The translations under genes and the position numbers were made by a program. From Hyphomicrobiales bacterium (GTDB lineage Bacteria; Pseudomonadota; Alphaproteobacteria; Rhizobiales; Rhizobiaceae), in contig UBXM01000050.1 in the NCBI GenBank assembly GCA_900469445.1, forward strand, positions 1 to 64,000: 64,000 nucleotides of DNA. The letters are read 5' to 3'. The first letter of the stretch is position 1. Every line of letters starts with the position of its first letter. Positions 50,907-59,925 of the stretch are shown in pieces. The notes beneath the pieces are model-generated. The model ran no database searches. It worked only from the letters and a program-made list of their open reading frames with translations, and was not told where the DNA came from.

Positions 50907-52028
<1,122 letters not shown>

Positions 52029-52033
52029 TCAGA

Positions 52034-54244
52034 TCAAAGTGCGCAGGATACGCAGCCCTGCACTTCCGTGCCGGTCAGCGCCATCTGGCGAAGGCGGATG
52101 TAATAGATGGTCTTGATGCCCTTCTTCCAGGCGTAGATCTGCGCCCGGTTGATGTCGCGGGTCGTCGCCGTATCGCGGAAGAACAAGGTCAGCGACAGGC
52201 CCTGATCGACGTGCTGGGTGGCAGCCGCATAGGTGTCTATGATCTTTTCCGGGCCGATCTCGTAGGCGTCCTGATAATAATCGAGATTGTCGTTGGTCAT
52301 GAAGGCTGCCGGGTAATAGACACGGCCGATCTTGCCTTCCTTGCGGATCTCGATCTTCGATACGATCGGATGGATCGAAGACGTCGAGTGGTTGATGTAG
52401 GAGATAGAGCCGGTCGGCGGCACGGCCTGCAGGTTCTGGTTATAAAGCCCGCCTTGCATGACGGCGGCCTTCAGTTTTGACCAGTCGTCCTGGGTCGGAA
52501 TGTGGATGCCTGCCGTTTCGAAAAGCTCGGCGACGCGTTCGGTCGCAGGCAGCCATTCCGCTTGCGTATATTTATCAAAATATTCACCGGAGGCGTATTT
52601 CGAACTCTCGAAGCCCTTGAAATTTTTGCCTTTCTCGACCGCCAGCCGGTTCGAGGCACGGATGGCGTGATAGGTCACCGTGTAGAAGTAGATGTTGGTA
52701 AAATCGACGCCTTCTTCCGAACCGTAGAAGATGCGCTCACGAGCGAGATAGCCGTGCAGGTTCATCTGGCCGAGGCCGATGGCGTGGCTGTCTTCATTGC
52801 CCTTGGCAACCGAGGGCACCGAGGTAATGTTGCTCATCTCCGACACGGCTGTGAGTGCCCGGATCGAGGTCTCGATCGTTTTGCCGAAATCGGCTGAATC
52901 CATCGCGGCAGCGATGTTCAGTGAGCCAAGATTGCAGGAAATGTCCTTGCCGAGATGATCGTATGACAGGTCAGCCGTGTAGGTGCTGGCATCGCTGACC
53001 TGAAGAATCTCGGAGCAGAGATTGCTCATGGTGATACGGCCGGCGATCGGATTGGCGCGGTTCACCGTGTCCTCGAACATGATGTAGGGGTAACCGCTTT
53101 CAAACTGGATTTCGGCGATCACCTGGAAGAATTCGCGCGCCTTGATCTTCTTTTTCTTGATCCGGCTGTCGGCGACCATCTCCTCGTATTTTTCGGTGAC
53201 CGAAATCTCGCTGAACGCCACGCCATAGACGCGTTCCACATCGTAAGGCGAGAAAAGGTACATGTCCTCGTTGTTCTTAGCGAGTTCGAAAGTGATGTCC
53301 GGCACGACGACACCAAGCGACAATGTCTTGATGCGGATCTTTTCGTCGGCATTCTCGCGCTTGGTATCGAGGAAGCGCATGATGTCCGGGTGGTGGGCGT
53401 TGAGATAGACCGCCCCTGCCCCCTGACGCGCGCCAAGCTGGTTGGCATAGGAGAAACTGTCCTCCAGGAGCTTCATCACCGGGATGACGCCGGAAGACTG
53501 GTTTTCGATCTGCTTGATCGGCGCACCCGCCTCGCGAAGGTTGGTCAGCGACAGGGCGACACCGCCGCCGCGCTTGGAGAGTTGCAGGGCGGAATTGATA
53601 CCGCGCGCGATACTTTCCATGTTGTCTTCGATCCGCAGCAGGAAGCAGGAGACAAGCTCACCGCGCTGCTTCTTGCCGGCGTTGAGGAAGGTTGGCGTCG
53701 CAGGCTGGAAACGGCCGGAAATGATCTCGTCGACCATGTCGCGGGCATGTTGTTCATTACCCCGTGCAAGCGTCAGCGCCACCATGCAGATCCGGTCTTC
53801 GTAACGCTCGAGATACCGTTTCCCGTCAAACGTCTTCAGCGTGTAGCTGGTGTAATATTTGAACGCGCCCAAAAATGTCGGGAAGCGGAATTTCCTGTCA
53901 TAGGCGTGATCGAACAGGTCGCGAACGAAATTGAAGGAATACTGATCCAGCACTTCCCGCTCGTAATATCCCTCGGTCACAAGGTAATCGAGCTTTTCCC
54001 GCAGGTTATGGAAGAACACCGTGTTTTGGTTGACGTGCTGCAGAAAATACTGCTTTGCCGCCTGCCGGTCACGGTAGAGCTGGATCTTGCCGTCCTCGTC
54101 ATAGAGGTTCAGCATGGCGTTTAGCGCATGATAATCGAGGGCAGCTTCAAAACCTTTGACCGAAGACTTTCCGGCCGAGTGAGGCACGGTTTCGAGCGGG
54201 ATTTCGCTCGCATCCCGAATTACAGAATTGCTTGTCGCGTCCAA
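52034..54244 (-). CDS. nrdE: Ribonucleotide reductase class Ib, large subunit
   Basis: A 736-residue catalytic subunit. The N-terminus [15 protein letters not shown] leads into [18 protein letters not shown], then [28 protein letters not shown] (active-site Cys near 201) and an [24 protein letters not shown] region. The C-terminus is GCVSCAL with the redox pair C-x2-C. It reduces ribonucleoside diphosphates with electrons from NrdH. A TTG at 54244 gives the family length and overlaps nrdI by 25 bp; the open frame extends further upstream but that part is nrdI in another frame. First ATG is far inside (codon about 41). Confidence 0.94.
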
Positions 54245-54633
54245 AATCGTTCCAATCCGTGTTTGACCTGATCGACATCTTCCTGCGTGCCCAGAAGCTC
54301 GAACTTGTAGAGAAAAGGCACCTGGCACTTGGCGGAAATGATGTCCCCGGCGATGCAATAGGCTGCGCCGAAATTGGTGTTTCCCGCGGCAATCACGCCA
54401 CGGATGTTTTTCCGGTTGTCCGCATCGTTGAGGAAACGGATCACCTGTTTCGGCACGGCGCCCTTCTGTTCGCCGCCACCATAGGTCGGAACGATCAGGA
54501 CAAAGGGCTCCGGTGCCTGCAGCGTCTCGTCGCTGCTGATCGGAATACGCCGGGCGTCCACCCCCAGCTTTTCGACAAAGCGGTGGGTATTTTCCGATTT
54601 CGTGGAGAAATAGACGACCTCGCCCATTGCCAT
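54220..54633 (-). CDS. nrdI: Ribonucleotide reductase flavodoxin NrdI
   Basis: A 137-residue flavodoxin-like protein. [19 protein letters not shown] near 6-24 is the phosphate-binding loop, VPTYGGG near 48-54 the second FMN loop, and [14 protein letters not shown] the third. It assembles the Mn(III)-tyrosyl radical of NrdF by supplying oxidant. ATGs at 54633 and 54627 are both possible. It lies 6 bp after nrdH and overlaps nrdE, so nrdHIE is translationally coupled. Confidence 0.95.
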
Positions 54634-54639
54634 CACGCG

Positions 54640-54861
54640 TCAGGCGAGCGCGCTGATCATGTCCGGGCGGAACCCGGCCCAATGCTGTTCACCGGCGATA
54701 ACCACCGGCACCTGACGGTACCCGAGGCCCTGCACCAGCTCATAAGCTTCGGCATCGGCGGAAACGTCGACGATCGTGTAGTCGATGCCCTGCCGGTCAA
54801 GTGCGCGGGTAGTTGCGGTGCATTGGACGCAGGCGGGCTTGCTGTAAACGGTTATGGTCAT
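54640..54861 (-). CDS. nrdH: Glutaredoxin-like electron donor NrdH
   Basis: A 73-residue glutaredoxin-like protein with thioredoxin-like activity. The redox pair CVQC lies at 11-14 in the start region [13 protein letters not shown], and the C-terminal [16 protein letters not shown] is the NrdH signature. It reduces the C-terminal cysteines of NrdE. It is the first gene of the nrdHIEF operon, about 260 bp downstream of the riboswitch, so its mRNA carries a long leader. Confidence 0.96.
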
Positions 54862-55123
54862 CGGTATTCCTCGTTTCGATAGGCGTGCAAAGGCGTTCGG
54901 ACATCTGCCGATGTCCGGGCAAAAATATGGGGAATGAAGGCAGGCGCAGACGCTGGCCGGGCTGTTAACGGCCCGTCATTCGCGCTGACGCAACTGGATA
55001 CTCGAATTCATAAGACTTCACCCCGAAGTGGCTCATGCGGACTGTTCGGGGAAGCGCACATGCGGAAACATCCCGCACGCATACGCGACCTTCCGGACAC
55101 CCCGCCCGTGGACGTTTTCGTTT
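54862..55123 (-). other. nrdH leader between riboswitch and start codon
   Basis: 262 bp of untranslated leader (minus strand) with no open gene. Weak hairpins are visible, for example ACTTC-accccg-AAGT-type pairing near 55015-55035 and a GGGC..GCCC pair around 54955-54975. These may form the expression platform, but I cannot pick the regulatory hairpin. Confidence 0.4.
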
Positions 55124-55314
55124 GAGGCAGGTCTCCTGGCTTGCGGGTCGTCACATCCATCTCACCTTCCCGAGGCCTTTGGGGCCTCAGTGGTTACCGA
55201 GCGGATGCTCGTCGCTCACAGTTGCGGGGGCAGCTCCGGCATTGCCTAGCCTGTCATGGGCTAGACGCACCGTATTCCCGTCTTAGCTTCCGACGCGAAT
55301 CGGAAGAACCTCGA
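55124..55314 (-). promoter_or_regulatory. Cobalamin (B12) riboswitch upstream of nrdHIEF
   Basis: Read leftward, the element shows the class-I cobalamin layout: GGTTCTTCCG then GGAAG, a TAAGACGGGAA segment, the conserved core GCCGGAGCTGCCCCCGCAAC, and the 3' B12 box AGCCAGGAGACCTGCC (revcomp of 55126-55141). Adenosylcobalamin binding is expected to shut down expression. That would turn off this B12-independent reductase when a class II enzyme can work. Confidence 0.9.
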
Positions 55315-55330
55315 ACACTAGATATAGTAG
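55315..55330. promoter_or_regulatory. NrdR-like box at the nrdH promoter
   Basis: ACACTAGATATAGTAG closely follows the NrdR consensus acaCwAtATaTwGtgt. NrdR represses ribonucleotide reductase genes when dATP is high. It abuts the 5' edge of the riboswitch. A second, weaker match at +31 bp (from about 55346) would give the usual pair. nrdR itself is not in the window. Confidence 0.6.
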
Positions 55331-55506
55331 ACGGCATGAATTTTCCGTCAACAGATATGAGGACTGAGTTTGGAAAAGTTTGGGGATTGGTTTCGCGCGA
55401 TGTCTCGATCGAGATCCATCTGCAACCCTGGCGGCGGTTGCAGGCATGATTTTTCCCCAACAGGGGAAGTGATCAAATCATACCTGAACTGCGGCCGTAT
55501 CGATAG

Positions 55507-56661
55507 TCATCCGAGATCAAGCGGCGGCGCGGAAAATAGACGCGAACTCAAGCGCGCAAAAGGCCGAGACAGCATGATCGGCAAGATCCATGCCTGTAAC
55601 CGCATGCCGAGACGGCTCTGGGGAATGTAATGACCGCCGATCTTGCGTGATACCGCTTGCATCTTCGTCACCAGCGGGCGTAACCGAGCCTCGTAGGCCC
55701 CGAACGCCTCGGCATGGGGCTTTTGCGCCAGCTCCTGTGCAAGAATATACGCACCCGCCATGGCTGTTGATGTCCCTTGCCCGGCGAGGAAAGTCAGGCA
55801 CCAGGCAGAATCGCCGAGAAGAACGACGCGCCCCTTCGACCATTGCGGCACTTCGATCTGCGAGACCGTGTCGAAGAAGGCGTTCTCCCAATCGATCGGC
55901 GCCTCCAAGGCAGAACGGACCGGTTCCGGCCATTTCCCGAACTCATCGACCAGAACCCGCCGCCTTGCATCCGCATCAAGCCGCTCGGTTCGACCGTCGC
56001 GCCAGCAGAACAGGGTTGCCGCATGCCCATCGCCTATATCGTAGAGACCGCCCTGGTGGTCGACATCCATCATGCCGACAAAGCTTGCGCCGAGCGGATA
56101 CTCAATCGGCATGCGCCACGCGCTGGCGCGATAACCGAGTGGACGCAGGAAGTCTTCATGTGGACCGAACACCTCAGCGCGCAATGCGCTGCGATAACCG
56201 TCTGCACCGACAACGAGATCGAATCGATCGATACCGCCATCGGAAAAGGTCACGTCGACACCGGCTCCGTCATCGTGAATGCCGGACACTGTCGTCTCGT
56301 AGCGAATGTCGACATCGGCTTCGACATGACGGGTGACGACATCCTGAAATCGGTCCCGCATGATCGCAAGCATCCGACCTCCCGACGCTTCCGCGAGCGT
56401 GCGGTAATCGTAGGAGAACAGTTTTCTGCCTCGTCTGTCGCGATGCAATGCCGGACCGAGCGGCATGGCCTTCGCCTTGAACTCGTCGATCAGGCCCAGC
56501 CGTTCGGCTACATTCCAGCCATTGATATGCAATCCGATCGAATAACCGCCGGTTCGCCCTTTTTCTGCCTTTTCGACAATGATGCAATCGATGCCCTGTT
56601 TTTTGAGGCACGCAGCAAGAGTGAGGCCGGCGGGACCGCCACCGGCAATGAGAATACGCAT
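55507..56661 (-). CDS. FAD-dependent monooxygenase (PHBH/TetX-like)
   Basis: A 384-residue flavin monooxygenase. The N-terminal GxGxxG reads GGGPAGLTLAACL near 7-19, the DG motif appears as VGADGYRSALR near 150-160, and the GD motif as VVLLGDSAWCLTFLAGQG near 268-285. Such enzymes use NAD(P)H and O2 to hydroxylate a small aromatic or lactone. It is the last gene of the leftward siderophore-uptake set, 10 bp after the TonB receptor, so its substrate may be the imported siderophore or a related compound (inferred). Confidence 0.85.
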   Translation of the reverse strand: MRILIAGGGPAGLTLAACLKKQGIDCIIVEKAEKGRTGGYSIGLHINGWNVAERLGLIDEFKAKAMPLGPALHRDRRGRKLFSYDYRTLAEASGGRMLAIMRDRFQDVVTRHVEADVDIRYETTVSGIHDDGAGVDVTFSDGGIDRFDLVVGADGYRSALRAEVFGPHEDFLRPLGYRASAWRMPIEYPLGASFVGMMDVDHQGGLYDIGDGHAATLFCWRDGRTERLDADARRRVLVDEFGKWPEPVRSALEAPIDWENAFFDTVSQIEVPQWSKGRVVLLGDSAWCLTFLAGQGTSTAMAGAYILAQELAQKPHAEAFGAYEARLRPLVTKMQAVSRKIGGHYIPQSRLGMRLQAWILPIMLSRPFARLSSRLFSAPPLDLG

Positions 56662-56671
56662 CAGTCCGCCC

Positions 56672-58672
56672 TCAGAATGTCATGTTGAGGCGGGCGCCGA
56701 ATGCGCGACCCTCGCCAAGCTGATAGACATTGCCATAAGGCGCAACGTTGAAGCCGTAGGTCGTATAGGTCTTGTCGAACACATTGGTGACGAAGGCTTC
56801 AGCGGCGACATTCTTGTCCAGTTCCCACTTCACGCCGAGGTCGACGAGGCCGTACCCCTTCTGGCCGATCGTGTTTGTCTCGTCGAAATAGACTTCGCTG
56901 ACATAGCTGAGAGCGGCATAGGGGATGATTGCACCAGCATCATTCTGCAGCTCGAACCGGTAGTCCAGCATGAGGTTGGCGGTAAACTCCGGCGCATAGG
57001 GCACACGATTGTCGGTGAGGTTCGTGCCCGGCGTAACCGGATTGCGGTAATCGGTGAATTTCGTATCGTTGTAGCCGAGGCCAACGGTGATACCCAGCGC
57101 ATCCGTCGGCTTGGCGCGAAGCTTCAGGTCGACACCCCTGGCGGTCACTTCACCGACATTCTGCAGATATTGCAACGGCTGCACGCCGACGAACATCTGA
57201 TAATCCTTGGTAACATTGTAATAGGCGGAAAGCTGCGCCTCGAGCGTGCCGTCGTCATTGCGATATTTGAGGCCGACCTCGCCATTATAGGTCTTTTGCG
57301 GATCATAAGTGTAGGCGATATTGGCAGTCGTCAGCGTTCGGGTGAAACCGCCAGCCTTGAAACCCGTGCTGAACAGACCGTAGAGCCGCAGGTTATCGGT
57401 CAATCCGTAGCTTGCACCCAGTTTCGGTGACAGCGCGCTGAAATTGTCGTCGTCGTCGAGTGTTACCCCACCCGTCGCCCTAGCCGCTGCTTCCTCGTAG
57501 TCAAACCGGAGGCCTGGTGTGATGTCGAGACGATCGGTAGCATGCCAGGTGACGTCGGCGAAGACGGCGTAGGAATCGATCTTGTGCCTGGCGATCTGAC
57601 CGTAGGCCGGAATGCTGCGGGTGAAATCGAGATGCTGGTAATAGAGACCGGCGACATAGTCGATCGCATTGCCCTCATCCGGGTTCGAGGCGATGCGTAG
57701 CTCCTGGCTCAGGGTCCATTGCTTTTCCGGCGTATAGGTGCCGAACACGGTGCGATCGAAATCGCTCTTCTGGTAACCGGTCAGCGCCGTCACCGTTGCC
57801 GGCCCAAGGTCGTAGCTGGCATTGATACCGAAATTCCACGTATCGAGCGTGTATTCAGATGGAACCGGGAGCGCGATCCGGTCCTCGAGCATCGATTCCA
57901 TGACGAAATACTCTTCCGTCGATGTCACACGGCCACGCCCGGCTGAAATCATCACGTCGAGCGGACTATCGTCCGGCGCGTATCGCAGACGCACCTGACC
58001 GTTCAGATCGTCGGTTCCGCCAACGCCCTCGCCGGTCAGCATATCCGTGTACTGGTCCTTGTGACTGATACCCGTGAAAGTGACGTCACTGAACAGCACT
58101 CCATCAACGAGCGGCATGTTGGCGTGAAACGAGCCGCCGGCGCCTTCCGAATTGACGTCACCATCGAAACCGAAACGCAGATCATCATCCGGCTTGCGGG
58201 TGGTGATGTTGATGACGCCGCCGATTGCGCCTCGGCCATAAAGCGTGCCCTGCGGCCCATACAGCAATTCGACGCTTTCAAGACCGCCCGGCAGACTGCG
58301 CGAAAGGTTGAAACTATCCTGCGGCAGACCATCGACATAGACCTGCGTACTCGGATTGTAGAAATCCAGAGATGCCTGTCCGCGGATGGTGAAGTTGGAA
58401 TAGGCGCGACTGGACCGGGTGCGGATATTGACGTCGGGGAAAACCCGGTCGAGATCGGCGACGCTGTCGATATTGCGCACCGACAGTTCCTCGGCATTGG
58501 CAACATCGACGGTCGAAGGCAGCAGGAAATAATCTTCCTGGCGCTTGGTCGCGGTAATGACGATCGGTGCCAGCACCGTGTCGTCCGATGCGCCCTGAGC
58601 ATTCGCCACTTTCGGCAGCATGACGGCGATAATGGCGAGGACGGAAACGCCCGAGAGGCGATGGCGCATCAT
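56672..58672 (-). CDS. TonB-dependent outer-membrane siderophore receptor
   Basis: A 666-residue receptor. A signal peptide ends near PKVANAQ. The plug domain shows LAPIVITATKRQED (TonB-box-like region), then RGQASLDFYNPSTQVYVDGLPQ and YGPQGTLYGRGAIGGVINITTR. The beta-barrel ends GRAFGARLNMTF with the terminal Phe needed for outer-membrane assembly. The start at 58672 has an AAGGTC site; a longer reading from 58906 includes unrelated sequence. It overlaps the MFS gene by 4 bp and likely takes up a hydroxamate-type siderophore, judged from its RhtX-like partner. Confidence 0.9.
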   Translation of the reverse strand: MMRHRLSGVSVLAIIAVMLPKVANAQGASDDTVLAPIVITATKRQEDYFLLPSTVDVANAEELSVRNIDSVADLDRVFPDVNIRTRSSRAYSNFTIRGQASLDFYNPSTQVYVDGLPQDSFNLSRSLPGGLESVELLYGPQGTLYGRGAIGGVINITTRKPDDDLRFGFDGDVNSEGAGGSFHANMPLVDGVLFSDVTFTGISHKDQYTDMLTGEGVGGTDDLNGQVRLRYAPDDSPLDVMISAGRGRVTSTEEYFVMESMLEDRIALPVPSEYTLDTWNFGINASYDLGPATVTALTGYQKSDFDRTVFGTYTPEKQWTLSQELRIASNPDEGNAIDYVAGLYYQHLDFTRSIPAYGQIARHKIDSYAVFADVTWHATDRLDITPGLRFDYEEAAARATGGVTLDDDDNFSALSPKLGASYGLTDNLRLYGLFSTGFKAGGFTRTLTTANIAYTYDPQKTYNGEVGLKYRNDDGTLEAQLSAYYNVTKDYQMFVGVQPLQYLQNVGEVTARGVDLKLRAKPTDALGITVGLGYNDTKFTDYRNPVTPGTNLTDNRVPYAPEFTANLMLDYRFELQNDAGAIIPYAALSYVSEVYFDETNTIGQKGYGLVDLGVKWELDKNVAAEAFVTNVFDKTYTTYGFNVAPYGNVYQLGEGRAFGARLNMTF

Positions 58673-59925
58673 GATTGCAAGACCTTTTCTGCGGATGGGA
58701 ATGGAGAAGACGGGCGGGCGGACGCCGGCAGGAACCGCCGCGAGATCAACATGGCAAGAAGGATAAACAGTGCGGAAGCGCCGAAGAGCGTGCCGTATCC
58801 GACAGCCTGGCCCAGCAATCCGGCCACCGATGATGCGGCAATGGCGATGATGGCATCCAGGCTTTGCAGAACGGCGAAATCCGTGGCCGTGCGCTGAGGG
58901 TCGCACCAGTTCATCATTGCGGCGTAAAGCGCGACAAAGGACATCGCGACCGCTGCGACCTGCGCCACCATCAGGCAGACGGCGACCGTCGGCGACACCG
59001 CGCTCCAGAGTTCGAGCGATGCCAGCGCCAATAAGAGAACGGCATTGAGGCCCGCGGCGGCGAGGATCGCCTTGCGGATGCCAATTGCCTGGACGATGAG
59101 GGCCGCGAGCGTCGACGCGATGAACCCGGCCACCGCGCCACCAGCACCACGCAAGCTGCCAATCATCTCCAATGACAGACCCTTGTCGACAAGGTAGGGG
59201 CCGGTCATGGCCGAGCCCATCCGCAAGCCGATCTGGTAGATCGTCAGGAAGACGAGACCCGTCATCAGTGTCCGATTGGACAGCGTCGCGCGCAACAACA
59301 TCGGCTGGCCGGCGTGACGTGTTGGTTCTCGCGAGACGGCCAGGCTGGAAGAGAGCATGACCGGAACGCTGAGAATGGCAACGAAACCTGCCATCGCCGC
59401 CATCGAAACGGCCTACCCGGCATGGCTATAGACGATCAGCCATATTCCACCTCCCAGAAGAAATCCCAGATAGGCGCCGGCTGTCGAGGCACCGCTTGCA
59501 GCACCTCTGGTCTCTTCGCTTGTTGCGCGAACAGCAAGCGAATCCGTGGCGATATCCTGCGTTGCGGCAAGCGTCGCCATCACCAGCAATATACCGGCCA
59601 ACGGCATCAAATGCGTCTGCGGAGGAAATGCCATAGCCGCCAAAAAGCAGGCAATGACGCCAGCTTGGCAGAACAATATCCAGGATCGCTCGTTGAAATA
59701 GCGGTCCACCAGAGGCGCCCAGAGAAACTTGAGAGCCCAGGGCAGGAACAGGATCGCCAGAAAGCCGATCTGGTCGAGCGGCATTCCGGCATCGCGCAGC
59801 ACGACCGGCAAGGCTGATTGAACCATGCTGCCGGTAACCGACTGAGCCGCGTAAAGCCCCGCCAGAAGGCCAAGGACGAGCCAGGCGCTCGATCGCGACC
59901 CGATATTGGTGAATGTCGTGGACAT
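58669..59925 (-). pseudogene. RhtX/FptX-like siderophore MFS transporter, interrupted by an amber codon
   Basis: The frame encodes a 12-segment major-facilitator protein in one continuous reading frame: the N-terminal half (GLYAAQSVTGSMVQSALPVVLRDAG; DRYFNERSWILF) and the C-terminal half (ATLSNRTLMTGLVFLTIYQIGLRMG...) are in phase. Between them a TAG occurs at 59413-59415 (minus strand GGG TAG GCC), flanked by SHAG and AVSMAAMAGF. A single TGG-to-TAG change is the simplest cause. RhtX/FptX proteins import ferri-siderophores without an ABC permease. It overlaps the receptor gene by 4 bp. Both halves have plausible ATG/TTG starts, but a split functional protein is less likely. Confidence 0.82.

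Follow-up and report, generated by a model that had tools for sequence, protein, structure and literature searches.

We lean towards the view that the nrdHIEF operon described here backs up the class II ribonucleotide reductase (RNR) NrdJ when B12 is short, that adenosylcobalamin represses it through a translational riboswitch acting by way of a short upstream ORF, and that NrdR probably controls it as well. This soil bacterium holds a spare, B12-free enzyme for DNA building blocks, which plentiful B12 probably switches off. Positions refer to the window, the whole stretch of 64,000 nucleotides that was analyzed.

From 5′ to 3′, the minus strand carries a promoter-like pair, an NrdR box, the cobalamin aptamer, a leader of 247 nt, and then nrdH, nrdI, nrdE, and nrdF (Table 1). 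The aptamer matched the RF00174 covariance model over the full model length, scoring 121.2 bits where the gathering score is 31.5, with an E value of 7.3e-30; this is the covariance-model check by which a preliminary description of this DNA had proposed to examine its cobalamin riboswitch. The class Ib RNR operon reported there was borne out as well, as NrdH, NrdI, NrdE, and NrdF each scored above the curated NCBIfam cut-off within one gene cluster, NrdI, NrdE, and NrdF by class Ib models. Its figure of 260 nt for the long leader was about right, because the distance from the aptamer end (55109) to the nrdH ATG (54861) is the 247 nt given above. The riboswitch, the class Ib operon, the NrdR box, and the long leader are thus all confirmed at the locus. 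Among the loci compared, the nearest NrdE (93% identity) and NrdH plus NrdI (94%) identify the genome as a Neorhizobium-like member of the Rhizobiaceae. On the strand of the riboswitch and upstream of it, positions 55507-58906 of the window hold FAD-dependent monooxygenase-like and TonB-dependent siderophore-receptor-like genes, whose best family matches lie below the curated cut-offs.

Table 1 Features of the nrdHIEF locus in the window, in minus-strand order
Feature	Position	Strand	Evidence
Weak candidate second NrdR box	55346..55361	(-)	Spacer 15 bp, 6/16 consensus matches, overlaps -35
-35 element TTGACG of the nrdHIEF promoter	55346..55351	(-)	Promoter scan
NrdR box CTACTATATCTAGTGT	55315..55330	(-)	Overlaps -10 and aptamer 5′ end
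-10 element TACTAT	55324..55329	(-)	Promoter scan
Cobalamin riboswitch aptamer	55109..55328	(-)	RF00174, 121.2 bits
Loop L5 CCCCCGC	55224..55230	(-)	Sequence
B12 box AGCCAGGAGACCTGCC	55126..55141	(-)	Sequence
Candidate L13 GGGCGGGG	55100..55107	(-)	Near-invariant alignment block and folding
Anti-Shine-Dalgarno segment CCCCGAA	55045..55051	(-)	Sequence and folding
Shine-Dalgarno sequence GGGGTGA of the short upstream ORF	55018..55024	(-)	Sequence and leader scan
Short upstream ORF, 11 codons, MNSSIQLRQRE*	54976..55011	(-)	Shine-Dalgarno sequence and start in 47/48 leaders
C-rich, G-poor stretch from short ORF to nrdH, candidate Rho loading region	54862..54975	(-)	C>G in 46/47 leaders
nrdH	54640..54861	(-)	TIGR02194, 102.2 bits
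nrdI	54220..54636	(-)	TIGR00333, 172.8 bits
nrdE	52034..54136	(-)	TIGR04170; extent from family match and stop codon
nrdF	50907..51881	(-)	TIGR04171, 480.9 bits; start is a chosen internal ATG, mechanical ORF from 51923

A backup role requires an enzyme to back up, and the nrdJ that had been predicted elsewhere in the genome is present as a single copy (C68:42490-44883). An order-wide sample contained class Ib nrdE in only 4 of 130 genomes, and family samples were therefore used; within the family, nrdE was found in 16 of 151 genomes, which makes nrdHIEF an accessory operon of patchy distribution. Two genomes of the same genus in the sample (G254 and G346) are without class Ib nrdE. In the 80 nearest nrdE loci, a pattern scan placed a riboswitch before nrdH in 47, all of them confirmed with Rfam, which was run on 57 of the 80; NrdJ scored above the cut-off in 44/49 and 1/30 genomes of the two sets drawn from these loci. 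NrdJ was also found in 31 of 38 further nrdE genomes, with a riboswitch before nrdH in 30 of the 31 NrdJ-positive and 0 of the 7 NrdJ-negative genomes.

Both samples were joined with the window into a table of 88 alphaproteobacterial class Ib genomes. L029 was left out; L097 and L098 were excluded because they give the same NrdJ coordinates as the L061 and L044 genomes; G371, in which nrdE has internal stops, was set aside; and G213 was counted as NrdJ-negative, its match to the NrdJ model (251.5 bits) being below the cut-off. NrdJ and the nrdH riboswitch were concordant in 86 of the 88 genomes: 74 have both and 12 neither, one has the riboswitch only, and one (G405) has NrdJ only (Fisher p 8e-13, ignoring kinship). 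The genomes reached by way of loci are of unstated completeness. Well-supported branches provide only four independent NrdJ contrasts, of which about three are concordant and none opposed (sign test p 0.25). Within the genus Devosia, L058 has both NrdJ and the riboswitch, and L057, L059, and L060 have neither. Neither was found in 28 non-alphaproteobacterial genomes, where riboswitches were sought with Rfam at five loci (L064, L070, L074, L067, and L068) and by pattern scan at the other 23. Taken across these relatives, co-occurrence supports the backup logic of the preliminary description, in which nrdHIEF stands beside a B12-dependent NrdJ. One contig filed as an Arenimonas (Lysobacteraceae) MAG (L015) carries a rhizobial nrdHIEF with the same leader and 92% NrdE identity, and is possibly mis-binned.

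NrdJ was not found in 13 alphaproteobacterial genomes, of which 12 are without the riboswitch and one has it in decayed form. The latter is Brucella rhizosphaerae (L034), whose aptamer (L034:2619-2837) is altered in the core loop, in L13, and in the B12 box and scores 76.5 bits, against 116-135 bits in its five tree neighbors (L036, L039, L052, L053, and L066). This looks like decay after loss of NrdJ, in a genome of unstated completeness. The pattern bears on the idea that the riboswitch is a passive relic, brought in together with the operon by gene transfer and without a function today. Transfer is plausible because nrdHIEF is so patchy in the family; a functionless riboswitch is nevertheless very hard to credit given that the scores of aptamers before nrdH in NrdJ genomes are 94-148 bits, with a single exception at 83.5, and that the aptamer with an altered core belongs to a genome in which NrdJ was not found.

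The same genome carries cobalamin riboswitches at nine places and encodes one full-length MetH. One of these riboswitches heads mesX (PF08908, 590.7 bits; C37, L001:1501-2791), and the ORF after mesX was read as mesD from its sequence. MesD and MesX are described in the available excerpt of PMC7857596 as a B12-independent methionine synthase system; B12-free alternatives to both MetH and NrdJ therefore carry B12 riboswitches in this genome. The mesX-mesD riboswitch resembles that of nrdH in its post-aptamer block GTCCACGGGCGGGGTGTCC and in a C-rich segment before the start region, and like the nrdHIEF riboswitch it heads a B12-independent backup enzyme. Unlike in the nrdH leader, mesX itself starts 120 nt after its own B12 box, with no short ORF between. 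CCCC and GGGG stretches precede the mesX start, as though a sibling platform sat on the methionine backup.

The other genes downstream of cobalamin riboswitches in this genome encode three periplasmic binding proteins, a DUF1636 protein, and a nitroreductase-family protein resembling BluB, together with a CbtA/B-like pair and a Rieske-type oxygenase recognized by eye. Two of the riboswitches are divergent and about 60 bp apart (C43:29486-29984), before the DUF1636 gene and the CbtB/CbtA-like genes. The ninth (77.6 bits; L133:581-837 (+), C42:17580-17836) precedes a 448-aa mechanical ORF read as the Rieske-type oxygenase, an unusual target. Three rhizobial loci have a second cobalamin riboswitch, placed about 2.8 kb upstream of that on nrdH (L023:82-295, L028:1-160, and L037:9-188).

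What sets the nrdH leader apart is a short ORF that the preliminary description had overlooked and that may explain the length of the leader. When 48 leaders were aligned (the window and 47 loci), two conserved blocks stood out. The first, GTCCACGGGCGGGGTGTCCGG, adjoins the aptamer; the second, CTTCGGGGTGAAGTC followed by an ATG, lies about 100 nt further on and is the Shine-Dalgarno (SD) sequence of a short ORF together with its start codon. This second conserved block was viewed directly for alignment rows up to L037, and the remaining rows were covered by SD and start scans. The SD sequence and start are present in 47/48 leaders, the exception being Devosia elaeis (L058), which keeps the riboswitch, and Rhizobium johnstonii 3841 (L051), a laboratory rhizobium, is among those with this arrangement; a stricter SD-plus-ATG pattern matched 39/48 leaders as against 0.7% of shuffles. 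The L13 block is altered in L031, L034, L044, and L058. The 38 extra loci contributed 13 long riboswitch-bearing leaders, in which the short ORF was recovered by pattern in nine (two of them duplicates), by a looser pattern in L094, L104, and L106, and by eye in L101.

The position of this ORF is more regular than its sequence. Its start codon follows the B12 box by 102-133 nt in 46 of 47 loci; the remaining locus, L031, has an insertion and a distance of 223 nt. In the window the distance is 114 nt, with nrdH at 264 nt. For 17 relatives with short leaders (family f41), the corresponding distance to the start of nrdH itself is 115-130 nt, and CGGGGTGCAAGAGACATG is present in three of these. 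Since these distances match one another and that of mesX, the short ORF occupies the position held by the start of the regulated gene in sibling riboswitches. Its length clusters at 20 codons (16 loci) and 11 codons (13 loci). Differences by codon position are flat in these two large length classes (0.52/0.57/0.57 and 0.52/0.50/0.59), and a lean towards position 3 is confined to a Brucella-like group of four and an Agrobacterium-like group of three; a conserved peptide was therefore rejected as a general statement. Pro-Pro, a possible pause site, occurs in the short ORF at 15/47 loci and at several of the extra loci (GPPF, APPF, and FPPG), for instance in L034, L039, L066, L052, L053, L104, L106, and L110-L113, where it is clustered by kinship.

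Based on these features, we propose that in the long-leader clade the riboswitch would act on the short ORF and not directly on nrdH. Without B12, L13 and its neighbors would pair with the anti-SD segment, leaving the SD sequence of the short ORF free and the 11-codon ORF translated. With B12 bound, L5 would take up L13, the anti-SD segment would pair with the SD sequence, and the short ORF would fall silent. Loss of its translation would lower nrdHIEF expression, most likely through Rho ending transcription on the untranslated, C-rich leader RNA, and B12 would in this way be expected to lower nrdH expression.

The candidate L13 is partly complementary to both L5 and the anti-SD segment, as the proposal requires. 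CCCCGC of L5 can pair with GCGGGG of L13 in a possible kissing contact; L5 hardly varies among the relatives and offers no covariation for or against it. In free folding, L13 pairs with the segment before the SD sequence with a mean probability of 0.63. Blocking L13 in silico raised the mean SD:anti-SD pairing from 0.18 to 0.49 over 47 loci, a rise of 0.31 as against 0.04 when the middle from L13 to the SD sequence was shuffled, and the observed value was the larger in 40/47 loci. The modeled effect is not specific to L13, because blocking other 8-mers downstream of it also raised SD:anti-SD pairing, to 0.39. Total SD accessibility changed little under the L13 block (from 0.35 to 0.29 in the 47 loci, with a drop of more than 0.15 in 10), as the SD sequence also sits in a small local hairpin. 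Among 19 short leaders, SD accessibility was lowered by random blocks in 7 and by the L13 block in 8. A comparison of SD accessibility with shuffled upstream sequence gave no signal, and the structure of the leader as a whole is not unusual (z -0.25). The modeled folding is thus compatible with a partner exchange that hides the SD sequence of the short ORF, with a modest effect and no strong on/off switch.

This modest effect, the absence of general conservation in the peptide, and the occurrence of the riboswitch with no short ORF in 17 short-leader relatives and in Devosia elaeis would all fit a simpler account, in which the riboswitch controls the nrdHIEF backup, the short ORF is incidental, and the long leader acts by transcription termination or by long-range sequestration of the nrdH SD sequence. 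We consider this account rather unlikely. It leaves the SD sequence and ATG in 47/48 leaders, at the very position of the platform, to coincidence; the nrdH ATG of the window lies far beyond the 115-130 nt that separate it from the B12 box in short leaders; and a simple scan of the minus strand from the aptamer to nrdH found no hairpin with a U run. A riboswitch with an intrinsic terminator was rejected on the last ground.

In the reading in which the riboswitch acts through the short ORF, Rho would end transcription, and base composition suits a candidate Rho loading region in the C-rich stretch. C exceeds G after the short ORF in 46/47 leaders and before it in 1/47. Measured over the last 100 nt before the nrdH SD sequence, the excess was again present in 46/47 leaders, with 8/12 riboswitch-free alphaproteobacterial, 8/17 short-leader, and 7/27 other controls. 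We entertain, as a possibility to which we give slightly less than even credence, that the riboswitch never touches the enzyme genes: an ORF fixed in position and variable in sequence would be its target, and passage of the ribosome would license the backup RNR past Rho, with pausing at Pro-Pro codons perhaps contributing.

Elements of such a relay have been reported in Mycobacterium tuberculosis. The excerpt of PMC11260477 available describes B12 riboswitches with upstream ORFs at ppe2 and metE. On that description, ppe2 shares with our proposal a translational B12 riboswitch whose first target is a short ORF, and the logic of L5-L13 and anti-SD pairing; the likeness was drawn without sequence comparison, the gene is different, and the ppe2 upstream ORF overlaps the gene start, unlike the gap of about 100 nt or more found here. 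The order of the parts, which is the same in that source, would suit a mechanism in which ribosomes finishing the short ORF go on to reinitiate at nrdH. We regard termination-reinitiation as improbable here, because the stop codon and nrdH are 114 nt apart in the window and 98-224 nt apart over the 47 loci, unlike the AUGA overlap of ppe2, and because most of the 47 loci, like the window, give nrdH an SD-like ACGAGGA of its own. The relay through Rho has a closer counterpart in the M. tuberculosis pe20 Mbox, for which the portion of PMC12810186 available describes a translational platform on a small upstream ORF together with Rho-dependent termination. The mechanism is the one we propose for the nrdHIEF leader; the Mbox differs as a Mg2+ sensor for which the Rho step is reported, whereas for nrdHIEF we infer it. 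The short ORF suggests that alphaproteobacteria, too, may relay a riboswitch signal by translating a small ORF, as mycobacteria are reported to do.

A second layer of control is suggested by the promoter. TTGACG and TACTAT, 16 nt apart, form a promoter-like pair that is overlapped by the NrdR box, with 0.5 such pairs expected by chance in that 1 kb; TTGACG stands at fixed spacing in nearly all of 47 aligned promoters, exceptions including L058 and L021. Searching the window for the consensus ACACTATATNTAGTGT with up to three mismatches returned five rows at three places, as against 0.16 rows expected by chance, and the best of the three places, with two mismatches, is the nrdH promoter. At up to one mismatch, WTACTATATNTAGTGT occurs at two places in the 6.29 Mb of the genome, the nrdJ and nrdH promoters, and the reversed-pattern control at 0, which upholds the NrdR-like box of the preliminary description. 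The nrdR gene for which that description had advised a search is present in one copy (C66:43829-44266; 153.9 bits against a cut-off of 124.65). A pattern allowing four mismatches returned the box in 47 of 51 sequences, those not returned being L034, L057, L059, and L060; the L034 box was found in another scan.

In the excerpt of PMC12051234 available, NrdR requires two boxes, and our two-box test for the NrdR regulon used a spacer of 15-17 bp. The nrdJ promoter has, as read from the sequence, a second, weaker, AT-rich box 32 bp on, at spacer 16. The nrdH promoter has one strong box and a degenerate candidate at spacer 15, in which an A at position 6 is nearly invariant in the aligned promoters and the G at position 13 belongs to the -35 element; taken alone, this candidate is non-significant. 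Because NrdR needs two boxes and nrdH has one strong box, control of nrdH by NrdR is no more than likely, and binding of NrdR to this promoter is what we would expect. In Streptomyces, NrdR binds the promoters of both RNR operons, according to the part of PMC9110341 available.

B12 control of a backup RNR is not new as a principle, having precedents in nrdABS and NrdDG. The B12 riboswitch of Streptomyces coelicolor nrdABS was reportedly described by Borovok in 2006, and we know of no upstream ORF for it. The excerpt of PMC4991794 available places nrdABS under this riboswitch beside NrdJ and reports transcription control; it is the Streptomyces class I reductase to which the preliminary description had correctly alluded. 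Like nrdHIEF here, nrdABS thus combines a B12 riboswitch on a class I RNR with a class II NrdJ, and unlike the class Ib nrdHIEF it is a class Ia enzyme of an actinomycete. The NrdDG of Desulfovibrio vulgaris and Desulfuromonas is a class III enzyme. It lies under B12 elements beside NrdJ, and repression by B12 while NrdJ is used has been predicted (PMC545781, excerpt), as we predict for the B12-independent nrdHIEF; unlike for the nrdHIEF leader, the available text of that source mentions neither NrdR nor an upstream ORF.

Among the titles, abstract openings, and passages listed, our literature search found no report of a B12 riboswitch before nrdHIEF in rhizobia, although Rodionov 2003 may well list it, and none of a short ORF in a rhizobial nrdHIEF leader. 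What is new here, if real, is the short-ORF relay between the riboswitch and nrdHIEF. Cofactor-dependent swapping of enzymes for an essential reaction can be tested at this locus, and the distribution across genomes amounts to a natural experiment. The platform comes in two forms, one placed directly on nrdH and the other on a short ORF ahead of it, which can be compared side by side. If ribosome passage does license the operon, a single leader would make the supply of DNA precursors depend on B12, dATP, and translation capacity. Downstream of nrdHIEF, two Rhizobium loci carry group II intron matches (L022:8356-8432 and L027:7475-9649).
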